From positions 1 through 53,062 of IMG/VR virus record IMGVR_UViG_3300017989_000147: DNA of 53,062 nucleotides, one strand, 5' to 3'. Below are positions 36,021 to 53,062 of this stretch, in pieces. Origin of the DNA: a virus. A program made the translations under genes and the position numbers. The notes beneath the pieces are model-generated. The model searched no databases, was not told where the DNA came from, and worked only from the letters and a program-made list of their open reading frames with translations. How positions within the stretch are numbered: the stretch's first letter is position 1; every line of letters begins with the position of its first letter.

Positions 36021-36049
36021 CCTATTATAGCGCATCACATAGATTGGCG
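36021..36049 (-). promoter_or_regulatory. Sigma70-like promoter P36
   Basis: On the minus strand: CGCCAA, 8 bases, ATGCGCTATAATAGG. The -10 TATAAT is at 36029-36024. The same arrangement with identical spacing is at 47125-47150. A short GGTT-CTT-AACC hairpin lies at the expected transcript start, then AAGGAG and the GTG at 36000. It should drive the replication operon down to 28089. Confidence 0.75.
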
Positions 36050-45876: not shown

Positions 45877-45933
45877 GGTTCCGCCGACAAATTAGTACGA
45901 CCTGCACTAGAGGGGGTATTTGCCGACGGAACC
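45877..45933 (-). promoter_or_regulatory. 5'-terminal 16-bp leader hairpin
   Basis: Arms at 45918-45933 and 45877-45892 pair over 16 bp with two G:U pairs (GGTTCCGTCGGCAAAT with ATTTGTCGGCGGAACC) around a 25-base loop. It begins within a few bases of the predicted transcript start and ends 20 bases before the ATG at 45857. It may protect the 5' end or regulate translation. Confidence 0.65.
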
Positions 45934-45950
45934 CCCTAATTATAGCGTAG
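45934..45950 (-). promoter_or_regulatory. Sigma70-like promoter P45.9
   Basis: Minus-strand TACGCTATAATTAGG; the -10 TATAAT lies at 45944-45939. It shares the CGCTATAAT core with four other phage promoter candidates. The -35 is weak. It should transcribe 45857 downward including the tRNA genes. Confidence 0.65.
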
Positions 45951-47150: not shown

Positions 47151-47594
47151 CTACCCCTCTTTCTGCATCCATTGCCTTCGGAGTAGATTAAAAACGTGCA
47201 CATTGTACGCGCTACAATCCTGGGCAACTTCGAGGTGCAGAAAGTAGTTGTAGTATTCCTTGATGAACATACCCACTGCCACAGATCTGCTCATTCCAGC
47301 ATCACAGTGAACTAGGAAGCTATGTTCATTGCCCCTCTTGACTCTACTGCTGATAAAGTCAAAGAGCTCACTTGCCATCTCCTTGCTGAACAAAGTGTAC
47401 GGCCTGTCCACTGTATCATCAGGGAGAATGTCATGGAACTCAAGGACAATGGATTGAGTCCACCTTTCATCTATTGGAGTCAAGCTGCCTTCACCCCAAG
47501 GTGTGGGAGGAGACTGAATGGAGATGACTGAGAACTCTCCACTCGGGTGCCAATCTGACCAGAACTTTTGTTTGCTAGTCACAAAGCAGTTCAT
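47151..47594 (-). CDS. Dual-specificity/tyrosine phosphatase-like protein
   Basis: 147 residues from ATG in a TGATG junction. The phosphatase loop FLVHCDAGMSRSVAVG gives the C-x5-R signature (Cys near 96, Arg near 102) and is followed by a typical helix. An Asp acid may lie in the earlier DILPDDTVDRPY segment. It might act on protein phosphate or on nucleotide/RNA 5' phosphates. Uncommon in phages. Confidence 0.82.
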   Translation of the reverse strand: MNCFVTSKQKFWSDWHPSGEFSVISIQSPPTPWGEGSLTPIDERWTQSIVLEFHDILPDDTVDRPYTLFSKEMASELFDFISSRVKRGNEHSFLVHCDAGMSRSVAVGMFIKEYYNYFLHLEVAQDCSAYNVHVFNLLRRQWMQKEG

Positions 47595-47818
47595 CACATA
47601 CCCAAGATGACGAGAATGGACTGAACAGTACCAGCATCACATTGTGCACACCAGCCCTTGTCCTGATCCGGTTCCACATTGGTGCTGTACCCACATTCCT
47701 TGCAGATCCCCAGCTGAATGCTATCAAGAGCCTCTCCACTGTCGAGATACTCATTGATGCTTTCATAGCCAGTGATGTCAAGAAACTCCTGTTCCATCTT
47801 TGCAATTGTGAGTCCCAT
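47594..47818 (-). CDS. Zinc-ribbon microprotein
   Basis: 74 residues from ATG at 47818 with GGAGGAAGT immediately upstream. Helical first half (AKMEQEFLDITGYESINEYLDSG), then Cys-x2-Cys pairs (CKECGYSTNVEPDQDKGWCA, QC). It follows leader hairpin a. Coupled to the phosphatase gene. Confidence 0.65.
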   Translation of the reverse strand: MGLTIAKMEQEFLDITGYESINEYLDSGEALDSIQLGICKECGYSTNVEPDQDKGWCAQCDAGTVQSILVILGM

Positions 47819-47847
47819 ACTTCCTCCATCTGAGCTGAATTGCTCAA

Positions 47848-47874
47848 TATACACTCAGTGTTAGTGAGTGTATA
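47848..47874 (-). promoter_or_regulatory. Leader hairpin a
   Basis: Perfect 10-bp stem TATACACTCA/TGAGTGTATA, loop 7. Flanks on the plus strand are GCTCAA and AAGTGC. It lies 30 bases upstream of the start at 47818. Member of a five-copy family. Confidence 0.75.
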
Positions 47875-47883
47875 AAGTGCACC

Positions 47884-48096
47884 TCACCACTGATAGGGTT
47901 CGGTTGCCTCTCCTTTCTCCAATTTCTTGGCGTGAGTCTCCAAGGCTTTGGCATCATCCTGGCACATCCTGGCTTTGACCATGTAGGCGTGTGCCTGTGA
48001 TCGGAGCATTGCTGCATCCTCTCTGATGACCTCTGCCTTTTCAGCAGGAGCCTTGTCCACCCAGAGCTTGCTGTTCTTGGAAATCTTGGGCTTCAA
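47884..48096 (-). CDS. Small helical protein
   Basis: A 70-residue protein, TTG start in a TTGA junction. Long charged helix (DKAPAEKAEVIREDAAMLRS, KARMCQDDAKALETHAKKLEK), probably a coiled coil. Function unknown. Confidence 0.6.
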   Translation of the reverse strand: MKPKISKNSKLWVDKAPAEKAEVIREDAAMLRSQAHAYMVKARMCQDDAKALETHAKKLEKGEATEPYQW

Positions 48097-48308
48097 TAGT
48101 CCATCTCCTCTCTGTCATCGAACTCTCGTTCAAACGGGTCCAAGTAGCGCCGCCTGTTCATGCAGCCTTGGCACACTGAGCTCGTTGCACCTTTCGGCAA
48201 CTTGCTGTAGCACAGGACGCAGTCAAAGCGTCCATCTTCATCAGGGCACCAAGAAGTCCCATCGGGATCTTGATGACCACAACAAGGGAAGTCTTCACAT
48301 CTCGGCAT
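48093..48308 (-). CDS. Zinc-ribbon protein (RCEDFPCCGH type)
   Basis: 71 residues from ATG at 48308 with GGAGG eight bases upstream. It begins MPRCEDFPCCGHQ, a motif seen in many small phage proteins, then CVLCYSKL and VCQGCMNRR. Probably two zinc sites. Function unknown. Confidence 0.7.
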   Translation of the reverse strand: MPRCEDFPCCGHQDPDGTSWCPDEDGRFDCVLCYSKLPKGATSSVCQGCMNRRRYLDPFEREFDDREEMDY

Positions 48309-48691
48309 CAGTCCATCCTCCACCATTCCAGTTTCGGCCAATCATCCGGCAGCTTGGTCAAGTACCTCTCGACAAGCACACGGTGATTGTTTTCAGCGTT
48401 CTCCCAAGTGGTTGCTTGCATACGGTCAATGTCCATGAAATTGATCTCGCCATTCTCCTTCATGAAGGCCATTGACTCAAACGGAGTGGGCGGTTCACAT
48501 CCATTGAAGGAATGCCCCAGGAATGTAGTTGAGACGTAGTAGAAATCACATTCACTACGCCCAACACAGTACATTGCCGGGAACTCACTTGTCAGCAGCT
48601 TGGCCTTATCAGGGCCAATGACGTTGGGAAGTTCAGCCTCTGTGAAGTAGGACTTGCCTCCGCCAATCCAAGGCACGATGTAACATCTCAT
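48308..48691 (-). CDS. Unknown protein (RCYIVPWIGGGKSYF)
   Basis: 127 residues from ATG at 48691 (AGGAG upstream, ATGA junction). No recognised family; mixed alpha/beta, Trp-rich end (LPDDWPKLEWWRMD). It contains YCVGRSECDFYYVS and NGCEPPTPFES. The longer frame to 48763 has no SD. It is in a run of coupled genes. Confidence 0.6.
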   Translation of the reverse strand: MRCYIVPWIGGGKSYFTEAELPNVIGPDKAKLLTSEFPAMYCVGRSECDFYYVSTTFLGHSFNGCEPPTPFESMAFMKENGEINFMDIDRMQATTWENAENNHRVLVERYLTKLPDDWPKLEWWRMD

Positions 48692-48870
48692 CTGAGAATC
48701 TCCTTCACCTTTCTCCAGAAGATCACGCTTCCAGTTTCCTGATTCTCCACTGCATTTCGCCAATGAGCCTCAGCCATCAGGTAGGCACTCCGCTTGGCAT
48801 CCTTGATCTTGACGCCACGGTGCATCCTCTGGGAGAGCATCCGACCAGCGACCAATTCAGGATCATTCAC
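48688..48870 (-). CDS. Small basic helical protein
   Basis: 60 residues from GTG in a GTGA junction, with GGAGG eight bases upstream. Helical and basic: GRMLSQRMHRGVKIKDAKRS, then EAHWRNAVENQETG. Function unknown. Confidence 0.55.
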   Translation of the reverse strand: MNDPELVAGRMLSQRMHRGVKIKDAKRSAYLMAEAHWRNAVENQETGSVIFWRKVKEILR

Positions 48871-49112
48871 AGCTTCAACCTCCTGACTCGCTTCTCGAAC
48901 CACTCAGAAGTCACGAAGTCCACCTGCTCCCTCTCCTGAGCACTCGGGCTGAAGGAAAGCATGAGGTTGCCACGAGTGATCCACCGACCACCCACCTTGT
49001 ACCAAAGCATGTTGGTACTAGGGTCCAACTCGACACGAGTCACAGTCTTGCCTTCGTGGATACCAACTTCGATGATATCACCGGGCAAGATATCCTGATC
49101 TTCCATTCTCAT
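48867..49112 (-). CDS. Small beta-type protein
   Basis: 81 residues behind AAGGAGAATGTGA. Strand-rich: PGDIIEVGIHEGKTVTRVEL, MLWYKVGGRWITRG; then an acidic/basic helix. It looks like an SH3/OB-like small barrel, but no family is recognised. Confidence 0.6.
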   Translation of the reverse strand: MRMEDQDILPGDIIEVGIHEGKTVTRVELDPSTNMLWYKVGGRWITRGNLMLSFSPSAQEREQVDFVTSEWFEKRVRRLKL

Positions 49113-49337
49113 TCACATTCTCCTTTTTTCACACTTTACGCATCGGTAGACAACGCGATTGCGCTGCCAGCTTTTGGCCATGAACTCACAGCCAAACTCT
49201 CCCATGCGCTTGTGAACAGGCCCCTTGCTGTAATCATGGGTTTTGCGATGACCACGAGGGCAAGTGAAGCGGATCTTGGTGCCACCCAAGTATTCCACCT
49301 TTGTGCCCTCATGCCATTGCTTGCCTTTGGCCTTCAT
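49113..49337 (-). CDS. Zinc-binding small basic protein
   Basis: 74 residues behind AAAAGGAGAATGTGA. Cys/His residues in FTCPRGHRKTHDYSKGP and RCVKCEKRRM, with Cys in FGCEFM, suggest one zinc site; overall basic. It lies 32 bases after leader hairpin b. Confidence 0.65.
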   Translation of the reverse strand: MKAKGKQWHEGTKVEYLGGTKIRFTCPRGHRKTHDYSKGPVHKRMGEFGCEFMAKSWQRNRVVYRCVKCEKRRM

Positions 49338-49368
49338 TCACATTCTCCTTTTGAGTTAAGCAACTCAA

Positions 49369-49394
49369 TATATGGCCAGTCGCCTGACCATATA
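49369..49394 (-). promoter_or_regulatory. Leader hairpin b
   Basis: 11-bp stem TATATGGCCAG/CTGACCATATA with one mismatch and four-base loop. Plus-strand flanks ACTCAA and AAGTGG match hairpins a and c. It is 32 bases upstream of the ATG at 49337. Confidence 0.75.
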
Positions 49395-49403
49395 AAGTGG
49401 TGC

Positions 49404-49541
49404 TTAGCCCACCTGTCGAATACCGTGAGGCTTGTCACGGTAGTGCTCCCAGGCGTAGTCCTCAGCTGCTTCCAGCGTGAAGAATCCGCCCTCGAACACT
49501 TCACCCGTCTCCAGGTTGAAGATTTCGTACCTTGCTTTCAT
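49404..49541 (-). CDS. Small protein (ARYEIFNLETGEVFEGGF)
   Basis: About 45 residues from ATG at 49541 (AAGGAT upstream; 49571 is a possible earlier start). A short beta pair followed by a helix (TLEAAEDYAWEHYRDK). Unknown function. Confidence 0.5.
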   Translation of the reverse strand: MKARYEIFNLETGEVFEGGFFTLEAAEDYAWEHYRDKPHGIRQVG

Positions 49542-49560
49542 TGTGAACTTATCCTTGTAG

Positions 49561-49623
49561 TCAGGACGCATCGTGGAACACCCAGGCACTGAATGCCATC
49601 ACGATCAGCCAGATCAGATACAT
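49561..49623 (-). CDS. Tiny one-helix membrane peptide
   Basis: A 20-residue frame (MYLIWLIVMAFSAWVFHDAS) with GGAGG seven bases before the ATG. It overlaps the stop of the preceding gene. Strong SD, uniform hydrophobicity and placement support translation; similar tiny peptides occur at 50.3-50.4 kb. Confidence 0.5.
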   Translation of the reverse strand: MYLIWLIVMAFSAWVFHDAS

Positions 49624-49847
49624 TCCGTTGCCTCCTTGTAGTGGAAGTGATAGGAGCAGACCATGTTCCAGAAGACCACCGTCTTCCACTGATCATCGAC
49701 CTCGACCTGTGGCTTGTCGTACAACTTCATCAAGTCGTAGTCCAAGTGGCACAGAGTCGCCTTGATGTCAGCAACTTCCAGGTGATCACCGATGCTTTCC
49801 GCTTGGTCAGCACGTCGCCTCAGTTCGCAGATCTCATCAACCCACAT
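49614..49847 (-). CDS. Small helical protein
   Basis: 77 residues from the ATG at 49847, just inside the end of the previous gene (49859 also possible). It has a helix (EICELRRRADQAESIGDHLEVADIKA) and a Cys/His-containing end (FWNMVCSYHFHYKEATEC). The longer open frame to 50012 overlaps a better gene. Unknown function. Confidence 0.55.
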   Translation of the reverse strand: MWVDEICELRRRADQAESIGDHLEVADIKATLCHLDYDLMKLYDKPQVEVDDQWKTVVFWNMVCSYHFHYKEATECI

Positions 49848-50208
49848 AGTCGGCAACATCCAGGCAGAAGGTGACCAGTTCGTCGATATCACCACCCTTG
49901 ATGGGAGTTGACTGACTGCAGGAATACAGCTGATCGACACCAATCGAAGGAGGCGCAGGCTCCATGTCCACGCGGAACCCCAGATCCTTCCAGAGATCAC
50001 TGATGTTGTCATCAGTAGTGCGACACCTCACGTTGTAGGTGTTCGTCCGATGACCCTCCCAGATCTTGATGGATGTGTCAGGGTTCGCATCAAACTCGAT
50101 GAAGAATTGCGCCCCTGCGAGATCACTGGACCGCTCATCAATCGTGAACGCGAAGCCAGACTCATTGTAGTTCTGGCACACTCGGTATGCAATTTTGTAG
50201 ATGCTCAT
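49837..50208 (-). CDS. Unknown alpha/beta protein
   Basis: A 123-residue protein behind TAAGGGAATTTGA. It starts SIYKIAYRVCQNYNESGFAF and has KIWEGHRTNTYNVRCRTTDD in the middle and an acidic end (GDIDELVTFCLDVADYVG). No recognised family. It follows hairpin c by 40 bases. Confidence 0.65.
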   Translation of the reverse strand: MSIYKIAYRVCQNYNESGFAFTIDERSSDLAGAQFFIEFDANPDTSIKIWEGHRTNTYNVRCRTTDDNISDLWKDLGFRVDMEPAPPSIGVDQLYSCSQSTPIKGGDIDELVTFCLDVADYVG

Positions 50209-50247
50209 TCAAATTCCCTTATTCAAGTTGAGTTAGAAGCAACTCAA

Positions 50248-50275
50248 TATACCCACAGTGTAACCTGTGGATATA
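50248..50275 (-). promoter_or_regulatory. Leader hairpin c
   Basis: 11-bp stem TATACCCACAG/CTGTGGATATA with one mismatch, loop TGTAAC. Plus-strand flanks ACTCAA and AAGTCT. It lies 40 bases upstream of the ATG at 50208. Confidence 0.75.
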
Positions 50276-50285
50276 AAGTCTTGCC

Positions 50286-50366
50286 TCAGAGTGTCAAGCT
50301 GAAGTAGACGTGGCAGATAGTGCCAAAGGTCATGTACGCGAAGATTATGGCAACCACTTCCTTCAC
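50286..50366 (-). CDS. Tiny membrane peptide 1
   Basis: A 26-residue frame from GTG, AGGAG six bases upstream, overlapping the next-upstream peptide stop. Hydrophobic throughout: KEVVAIIFAYMTFGTICH then VYFSLTL. No family recognised. Confidence 0.45.
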   Translation of the reverse strand: MKEVVAIIFAYMTFGTICHVYFSLTL

Positions 50367-50431
50367 ATCTGACTCCTAATGTAGAGGTAATAGATCAAGG
50401 CAGCGATGAACAGTGCTTCACCTAGTCTCAC
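50363..50431 (-). CDS. Tiny membrane peptide 2
   Basis: A 22-residue frame from GTG behind AAGGGAAA: RLGEALFIAALIYYLYIRSQ then M. Overlaps both neighbours. Predicts one membrane helix. Tandem arrangement with peptide 1 suggests a two-part membrane peptide system or an antiholin-like role, without proof. Confidence 0.45.
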   Translation of the reverse strand: MRLGEALFIAALIYYLYIRSQM

Positions 50432-50637
50432 TTTCCCTTCTCCAGCATCACGCTTTTCGCCACCTCCGCATCCTTGAGGTCATCTGTGTAGTAGTCGGCA
50501 GCCGGCACTCGGACAACCTTCCCCTCTACCAAGATCCACGCACGGCAGACCCACTCGTCGCTGTAAGTAGATCGGCCAATCTCGACCTACTTGATGTTCT
50601 CAAACATGTCGCGCTTCGAGGCATACTTCATTTTCAT
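50428..50637 (-). pseudogene. Small gene with in-frame amber codon
   Basis: From ATG 50637 (or 50631) the frame runs 16 codons (MKMKYASKRDMFENIK) and hits TAG at 50589-50587. The same frame then stays open for 52 codons (VEIGRSTYSDEWVCRAWILV, ending VAKSVMLEKGK) to a TGA that overlaps peptide 2. SD AAGGGAATGTAA precedes the first ATG. TAG is used as a normal stop elsewhere (terS, 26685 gene), so this is either a recent nonsense mutation, amber readthrough, or a sequencing error. Confidence 0.6.
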
Positions 50638-50669
50638 TTACATTCCCTTGTCAATTTTGCAGCCCGTAG

Positions 50670-50698
50670 GGCTATTATAGCGTATTTCTACGCTGAAG
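50670..50698 (-). promoter_or_regulatory. Sigma70-like promoter P50.7
   Basis: Minus-strand AATACGCTATAATAGCCC; -10 at 50679-50674, and TTTACT 17 bases upstream could be a -35. Immediately after, AGCCC-TAC-GGGCT makes a hairpin at the expected transcript start. Confidence 0.7.
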
Positions 50699-51105
50699 TA
50701 AAGGGGCTTTCAGGCCCTTTGGAAAAACAATTTTCCGCCCCTAGCTTTTCGCTAGTGCTTTCTAACAGATAAGTCCGCGATTTTATTACGTTTTTTCGAT
50801 TTGCCCCTATGTTAGCGACCTCAGTTAGCGCGCAGGCGCCAGAGACGGCAACCAGAGCAAATGAGGCTGCCCAAGAGGGAGCATGGGGGTAAGAGAGGAT
50901 GTCCCTATATATGATATATAAAAAACCCTTATTTTTCGGATACTTACCTGTTAGTAAAAAGCTAGTAAAACCACTAGAATTTTTTGAGAAATTGTTAGTA
51001 AATGACCCTAACAATTTTTGGCACTAGTGGCATGTAGGCTTTTTCGGAATCGGGAAACCAGGGTCACTAGGGCAGGTACTTATCCTGCAATTAGTGCCCT
51101 ACTGG
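50699..51105. other. Noncoding repeat-rich region, candidate origin
   Basis: About 400 bases without a convincing gene. It holds a terminator-like AAAGGGgCTTTCAGgCCCTTT hairpin (50701-50721), CTAGC/GCTAG (about 50740-50755), AT-rich sequence with repeated TTAGTAAA (50951, 50994) and CTAGTAAA (50962), and a long cruciform at 50971-51030. CACTAG or its complement recurs near 50972, 51022, 51066 and 51091. AT-rich DNA, repeats and palindromes between operons are typical of replication origins. A 108-codon frame here has no SD or family match. Confidence 0.5.
50971..51030. repeat. Two-part cruciform
   Basis: Outer arms CCACTAG (50971-50977) and CTAGTGG (51024-51030); inner arms AATTGTTAG (50990-50998) and CTAACAATT (51008-51016); nine-base loop. 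The outer and inner arms fold as one 60-bp cruciform. Confidence 0.7.
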
Positions 51106-51408
51106 CTACACACCCATCGGATGCTTGAACGTCTTCTCCCAGAGTTCAGGGTCACGCTCCTTGAGGAGTTCCTCGTAGCGCTTGGCGTAGTATTCGCAGC
51201 GCTCCTCCAGCTGCTCCACCTCAAGAGCCTGCGTGTCTCGCCCAGCGACCCTGAACCCATCCTCACAGACCTGATCATAGAAGCCATGCATCTTCTGGCA
51301 GTATTCCAACTCGTCGAACTCTTCACCGAGTTGCCGAGCACGGAATTTCTCGTTGCCGAGCACCAATGCTTCGATCCACAAGGGTGCACGTTGCGTCTGG
51401 ATTGCCAT
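51106..51408 (-). CDS. Coiled-coil small protein
   Basis: A 100-residue protein behind AGGAATTTTGA. A helical chain (NEKFRARQLGEEFDELEYCQ, QALEVEQLEERCEYYAKRYEELLKE) ends in WEKTFKHPMGV. Function unknown. It lies between the candidate origin and hairpin d, 44 bases after the latter. Confidence 0.65.
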   Translation of the reverse strand: MAIQTQRAPLWIEALVLGNEKFRARQLGEEFDELEYCQKMHGFYDQVCEDGFRVAGRDTQALEVEQLEERCEYYAKRYEELLKERDPELWEKTFKHPMGV

Positions 51409-51451
51409 TCAAAATTCCTATTCACGTTGTTGGACACAGGTAGTGTGTCAA

Positions 51452-51488
51452 TATACCGACAGAAGCTGTGAAGGCTCGTGTCGGTATA
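51452..51488 (-). promoter_or_regulatory. Leader hairpin d
   Basis: Perfect 10-bp stem TATACCGACA/TGTCGGTATA, 17-base loop. Left plus-strand flank TGTCAA matches the family. It is 44 bases upstream of the ATG at 51408. Confidence 0.75.
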
Positions 51489-51499
51489 GAGCCACCCTA

Positions 51500-51766
51500 C
51501 TAGTCCCAGAAGTCTCCAGGATATTCCCTAGCAGCAATCTTGATGAGAGTGTACTGGAGCACGAGAGGCAACTCGTTCCAGCGCTTCTCGATGAGGTTGG
51601 GGCTCCCAGCCTTCCAGCTTGCCGGGTCCCAGTCATCTTGAGGGTCGCGATTGTCTGCGACACTGTACAAGTAGAGTTGGTCGTACACCTCCTCGGACAC
51701 ACCATCGAAGGTTTCGGCGACATCATCCAAGGTCGTGAGAGTCAGAGAGCTAGGGCACTTGGGCAT
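51500..51766 (-). CDS. Small acidic protein
   Basis: 88 residues from ATG at 51766 behind AAGGAATTTGAATCA; the longer frame to 51958 crosses repeats and hairpin e and is rejected. It is acidic and helical (TTLDDVAETFDGVSEEVYDQ), ending VLQYTLIKIAAREYPGDFWD. Unknown function. Confidence 0.65.
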   Translation of the reverse strand: MPKCPSSLTLTTLDDVAETFDGVSEEVYDQLYLYSVADNRDPQDDWDPASWKAGSPNLIEKRWNELPLVLQYTLIKIAAREYPGDFWD

Positions 51767-52001
51767 TGATTCAAATTCCTTATTGGCATTCAGAGTGGCG
51801 AGAGTGCAACTCCATATTCGCGTACTGTCACTGTCGCGCGAATATGCACTAGCACTGTCACTGTCGTTGTCGCTGTCGCCCACGAGCGAGCGCACGAGCG
51901 AGCACGCACTGGAGCGTGTTGGCATGAATTTTGGCATGCAATCTGCGTGGCTTGGCAAAATTGCGGTGTTGGCTCCTTCACAGGTTGGATGTGAGAAAAA
52001 G
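51767..52001 (-). repeat. Spacer with short tandem repeats
   Basis: No convincing gene. On the minus strand GACAGYGACA-like repeats run over about 51825-51878 (loop of hairpin e and beyond), GAGCGAGC repeats lie at 51891-51903, and TTGGCA recurs at about 51921, 51934 and 51952. Possible protein-binding array or slippage-prone repeat. Confidence 0.5.
51813..51846 (-). promoter_or_regulatory. Leader hairpin e
   Basis: Perfect 10-bp stem CATATTCGCG/CGCGAATATG, 14-base loop holding ACTGTCACTGTCG. It is 47 bases upstream of the ATG at 51766. The left flank ACTC is shared with the family; the right flank is diverged. Confidence 0.65.
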
Positions 52002-52035
52002 CAAGAGGGGCAGGGTCCGTGTGGACCCCACCCCT
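51994..52035 (-). terminator. Intrinsic terminator of the 52.0-kb gene
   Basis: Hairpin AGGGG-CA-GGGTCC-GTGT-GGACCC-CA-CCCCT at 52006-52035, followed on the minus strand by TTGCTTTTTC. It lies ten bases after the stop of the 52045 gene and should separate it from the downstream small-gene operon. Confidence 0.8.
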
Positions 52036-52044
52036 CACCCTTGG

Positions 52045-52939: not shown

Positions 52940-53062
52940 AAATCCCCGACGCCATGAATATAGTATAACCCCCCCGGCACCCCCCCGCTACCCCTAAATC
53001 ACCACCCGTGGGGGAAAATCAACACCCGGGGGTGATATTTCACCCTAGGGGGCTCAAAAATC
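52940..53062. repeat. Direct terminal repeat, right copy
   Basis: Exact second copy of bases 1-123. The unique genome is therefore 52,939 bp, and features near 53 kb continue directly into features near position 1. Confidence 0.95.

Follow-up and report, generated by a model that had tools for sequence, protein, structure and literature searches.

Minus-strand genes and five intergenic hairpins

The DNA analysed here, called the window below, is the entire 53,062-nucleotide stretch of IMG/VR virus record IMGVR_UViG_3300017989_000147. Its first and last 123 bases (1-123 and 52940-53062) are identical, a pattern expected of a direct terminal repeat or of a circular assembly, and the genome is therefore probably complete. 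Minus-strand genes occupy 46-52.6 kb of the window, and several of their starts (45857, 47094, 49112, 49337, 50208, 51408 and 51766) have in common a sequence of the AAGGnnTTTGAATG or AAGGAGAATGTGAATG type; these shared start-codon sequences recall the start-associated sequences of mycobacteriophages. The exact sequence GCTATAAT occurs five times, at 302 on the plus strand and at 36024, 45939, 47125 and 50674 on the minus strand, and is a candidate promoter set, three of the five copies lying just upstream of minus-strand gene starts.

An initial annotation, made from the letters alone, described five paralogous leader hairpins in this region, and all five were found at the coordinates it gave, on the minus (coding) strand: 47848-47874 (E1), 49369-49394 (E2), 50248-50275 (E3), 51452-51488 (E4) and 51813-51846 (E5). 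Their inner stems are perfect or near-perfect and have 10, 11, 11, 10 and 10 bp, respectively, with loops of 7, 4, 6, 17 and 14 nt. The distance from the end of the inner stem to the minus-strand ATG is 29-46 nt in all five; the annotation gave 30-47 bases. The genes that follow are small: those after E1 (47594-47818, minus strand, 74 aa), E4 (51106-51408, minus, 100 aa) and E5 (51500-51766, minus, 88 aa) have no family match, that after E2 (49113-49337, minus, 74 aa) has no confident family match, and that after E3 (49837-50208, minus, 123 aa) has no family or phage match. The annotation also placed every hairpin directly after the previous gene or operon unit; this is true of E1-E4, which lie directly behind the upstream stop codon, but E5 comes about 145 nt after a strong terminator (52005-52036) found by the terminator scan, with no clear promoter visible ahead of it. 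The same scan predicted no terminator (a G+C stem followed by a T tract) at any of the five hairpins, so the earlier statement that they are not terminators stands.

The run of genes that includes E3, E2 and E1 is preceded by a candidate sigma70-type promoter, promoter A (50674-50702, minus strand, TTTACT-17-TATAAT), with no predicted terminator from there to E1. The first frame after promoter A (50428-50637, minus) is interrupted after 16 codons by an in-frame TAG and then runs on in frame for 52 more; this TAG sits inside a 10-bp hairpin (50565-50592), and readthrough, a pseudogene or a sequencing error are all possible. A long non-coding stretch between minus-strand genes (50640-51100) carries inverted and short repeats and is possibly a replication origin or a regulatory region. 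Finally, directly behind a GCTATAAT copy and before a start codon there is a 16-bp stem with two G.U pairs (45877-45947, minus); it is a possible leader structure and was kept out of the set, as a sixth member, because its loop is different.

Longer rods that vary in sequence and keep their pairing

When the leaders were folded, pairing extended beyond the hairpins: all five form the upper part of longer, irregular rods with about 20-23 base-pair positions. The E1 rod (47836-47886, minus strand; fold z-score -4.4) consists of an outer stem TGAGGTGC/GCAATTCA, an internal loop aCtt/ttGa and the inner stem TATACACTCA/TGAGTGTATA. The other rods, all on the minus strand, are as follows: E2 (49357-49406; z -6.9) is TAAGCACCACTT-TATATGGTCAG/CTGGCCATATA-TTGAGTTGCTTA, E3 (50236-50287; z -6.9) is GAGGCAAGACTT-TATATCCACAG/CTGTGGGTATA-TTGAGTTGCTTC, E4 (51440-51500; z -5.1) is GTAGGGTGGCTC-TATACCGACA/TGTCGGTATA-TTGACACACTAC, and E5 (51803-51856; z -3.5), the weaker member, is AGTGCTAGTG-CATATTCGCG/CGCGAATATG-GAGTTGCACT. 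Read along the coding strand, E1-E4 have one layout: ACTT/GCTC, then TATA and 6-7 variable bases, the loop, the complement of the variable bases with TATA, and TTGA. The initial annotation had regarded both tips and flanks as conserved. The flanks are (ACTT/GCTC 5' of the inner stem and TATATTGA 3' of it), in E1-E4 only, and the loops, its tips, vary. In the folded rods of E1-E4 these flanks are a conserved internal loop (ACUU/UUGA) made up, from the inside outward, of a UU/UU mismatch (CU/UU in E4), a C-G pair and an A.A or G.A mismatch. E5 deviates; its inner stem CATATTCGCG/CGCGAATATG is followed by GAGTTGC, and it resembles the others in geometry and in this right-hand GAGTTGC only. To speak of five paralogous copies was thus generous: four are clear, and the fifth has the geometry plus a short match.

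Beyond the internal loop the outer stem of E1-E4 has 7-8 positions, which also covary; its sequence differs from copy to copy, being TAAGCACC/GTTGCTTA in E2, GAGGCAAG/GTTGCTTC in E3 and GTAGGGTG/CACACTAC in E4, and each pair of outer flanks has a p value of 0.006-0.012 against random pairs from the genome. The central observation of the annotation, that the stem middles differ between copies and nevertheless pair, is borne out: for the inner arms and for the outer flanks alike, the native combination of partners is the best of all 120 permutations. In an alignment of the E1-E4 stems (alignment A3) 94.4% of the cells are paired, against 76.0% after shuffling (none of 500 shuffles reaches the native value) and at most 55.6% in slid registers, and both sides have changed in 8 of 19 pairs, a count taken over four related copies in a single genome. 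The permutations, this covariation count (E1-E4) and the sense-strand fold z-scores support selection for structure over sequence, as the annotation had proposed.

Three observations favour RNA over DNA as the form in which the rods act, although with four copies they are not conclusive. The rods contain four G.U and no A.C wobbles on the coding strand, which supports RNA weakly, the count being small (sign test about 0.06). The sense strand folds far better than the antisense strand in E2 (z -6.9 against -3.1) and E3 (-6.9 against -3.8) and slightly better in E1; in E4 and E5 it does not fold better. Lastly, the conserved UU/UU is identical on both sides of one strand and so is not palindromic in DNA.

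Relatives of the element were sought in several ways. A covariance model built from E1-E4 (model R1) found only E1-E4 in the window, missing E5 even with filters off, and gave no convincing hit in Cronobacter phage Ss1, Vibrio phages VA-RY-3 and PVA7, or T7. Rfam covariance models gave no match at the five sites at E values up to 1. Pattern scans of viral and bacterial contigs gave chance matches only among the matches listed, with at most three pairs above TATA against 6-7 in the window's copies. Protein searches with the polymerase, primase, helicase, last-gene and E3-gene products gave only distant phages, a short fragment or nothing, and the element was not matched in the contigs, mostly short, of capsid relatives (44-51% identical). 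Since the element was seen in none of the other phages and contigs covered by these searches, all of the covariation is between copies in one genome. A set of copies within one genome yields internal covariation in the absence of relatives, which makes it a cheap way of finding such signals in metagenomic phages.

Gene junctions and an alternative hairpin

The E1-E4 rods lie, in what would be transcripts of the minus-strand genes, at stop/start junctions, and E5 lies behind its terminator. Each outer arm starts on the stop codon of the upstream gene or right next to it, at TGA in E1, TAA in E2 and alongside TAGTAG in E4; in E3 it starts one base into the TGA of a 26-codon upstream frame (start GTG at 50366). 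The upstream stop is about 9-11 nt from the inner stem in E1-E4, and the Shine-Dalgarno sequence and ATG come after the rod.

In E1-E4 the 3' strand of the rod (TTGAG) can instead form a small hairpin, hairpin II, that is mutually exclusive with the outer stem. Its four versions, all on the minus strand, are TTGAGC-aattca-GCTCAG in E1 (47830-47847; shuffle p 0.034), TTGAGTT-gctt-AACTCAA in E2 (49351-49368; p 0.003), TTGAGTT-gcttct-AACTCAA in E3 (50228-50247; p 0.001) and TTGACACA-ctacc-TGTGT(C)CAA in E4 (51430-51451; p 0.004); the E2 and E3 values are not independent because the two sequences are nearly identical. Where either structure could form, free-energy folding prefers the rod to hairpin II. 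Should hairpin II prove real, it would connect upstream termination or cleavage with the structure of the downstream start site in a concrete way that can be tested.

Processing sites and other readings

What might these elements do? Judged by their anatomy and placement, they are intercistronic RNA rods in polycistronic phage mRNA and most likely processing sites of the RNase III type, a reading to which we assign a probability of about 0.5. A phage-encoded RNase III was searched for in this phage and not found, and the enzyme acting would therefore be that of the host. Host RNase III would bind the rod and cut in or near the internal loop; the cut would separate upstream from downstream messages, and the inner hairpin would remain as the 3' end of the upstream mRNA. 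Going one step further, cutting may release the TTGAG strand, which could then fold into hairpin II at the 5' end so created, beside an accessible Shine-Dalgarno sequence. Of the three functions offered by the initial annotation (5'-end stabilisers, processing sites and binding sites for a phage regulator), processing by an RNase is the best fit, given the analogy with T7; 5' stabilisation could follow downstream of cleavage, and for a regulator no candidate RNA-binding protein was identified. Several points speak against the processing reading: the conserved loop differs from that of T7, E5 lies behind a terminator, TATATT can also be read as a -10 hexamer, the covariation comes from four related copies in a single genome, and the wobble count is small.

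The main rival is a structured 5' leader or translational switch that works without cleavage. It is compatible with all observations, and we regard it as a possibility of some weight, if an unlikely one. Either the ribosome terminating on the upstream gene, which covers approximately the length of the outer stem, would melt that stem, let hairpin II form and alter access to the downstream start site, or a protein would bind the conserved ACUU/UUGA loop. The start of the outer arm at the upstream stop codon, about 9-11 nt before the inner stem in E1-E4, agrees with this reading, as do the mutual exclusion of hairpin II and the outer stem and the conserved AAGGnnTTTGAATG-type start-site sequences after the elements, but the Shine-Dalgarno sequence is not clearly hidden in either predicted fold, simple compaction would also place rods at the stop codon, and the T7 sites that are similarly placed are processing sites.

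A reading that we consider rather improbable is that the elements act as DNA, as promoters of the sigma70 type whose inverted repeats serve a phage regulator, comparable to the ESAS of cluster K mycobacteriophages. Those are inverted repeats of 15-17 bp that overlap SigA-like promoters and stand immediately before start-associated sequences (PMC3203893, PMC11373665). Here too inverted repeats with a variable spacer and promoter-like hexamers stand just upstream of conserved start-site sequences in a non-structural region, the inner stems of E1 and E2 lie between TTTATA/TATACA and TATATT hexamers, the TATATT on the 3' side of E1-E4 is readable as a -10 hexamer, and E5, being behind a terminator, needs a promoter. 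The TATATT hexamer by itself suggests promoters; this reading was demoted because the spacing is variable and the conservation strand-asymmetric. The hexamers are 19, 18, 20 and 29 bases apart in E1-E4, instead of the 17-18 bp of SigA/sigma70 promoters, and E5 has no good -10; separate sites match GCTATAAT exactly; and the conserved UU/UU is strand-asymmetric. In ESAS a consensus is common to the half-sites, which do not covary as RNA, and the authors who described them saw little support for RNA pairing (PMC3203893). The opposite is found here, where the half-sites vary from copy to copy but stay complementary, each arm pairing best with its own partner.

A more speculative proposal, to which we give slightly less credence still, is that the elements are paralogous two-state intercistronic switches, in which a rod with the ACUU/UUGA loop would be opened by the terminating ribosome or by cleavage, and hairpin II would then determine translation or stability for the gene that follows, with a phage-specific RNA-binding protein as a possible reader. 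Least of all do we expect hairpin promoters of the phage N4 kind, formed in DNA and used by a virion RNA polymerase. Those likewise stand upstream of phage genes, as do the hairpins here, upstream of early-type ones, but N4 has 3-nt loops and 5-7 bp stems, whereas the loops in this phage measure 4-17 nt and the stems 10-11 bp. There is also no very large polymerase-sized open reading frame here (the longest listed, 1539 aa, is within the structural gene block), and the conserved feature is an RNA-like internal loop.

The processing reading draws most on phage T7. As a control we folded in the same way the intergenic regions of T7 in which its early-region RNase III sites lie, at positions which we take to be those of the sites. 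R0.3, R0.5, R1, R1.3 and R4.7 fold as an upper stem (9-13 bp), a short loop and a lower stem (4-9 bp in several sites); the R0.5 rod overlaps the preceding stop codon and the R1 rod nearly abuts it. In R1.1 the lower stem did not appear in the short stretch that was folded. R1.1, which lies between genes 1.0 and 1.1, has a 4/5-nt internal loop, and RNase III specificity varies by species (PMC6121014). T7 copies mostly share AAGG/CCTT at the base of the upper stem and ACTCA/TTATGA-type flanks, whereas the elements described here have UAUA/UAUA, a symmetric UU/UU, C-G, A.A loop and the alternative downstream hairpin; cleavage has been shown for the T7 sites, and the likeness here is one of predicted anatomy and placement. 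In both phages several intergenic copies with varying stems are present in one genome (R0.3, R0.5, R1, R1.1, R1.3 and R4.7 in T7), with an upper stem of about 10 bp, a short internal loop, a lower stem in several T7 sites, and a rod at the preceding stop codon, as in R0.5 and R1. The irregular double-stranded rod of at least about 20 pair positions that marks a T7-type site is present in E1-E5, each with 22-23 positions in register (z -3.5 to -6.9), and the internal loop between upper and lower stem is present in E1-E4, E5 deviating. If the processing reading is right, repeated intercistronic RNA rods punctuate small-gene transcripts not only in T7 but also, independently, in a phage for which no relationship to T7 was detected.
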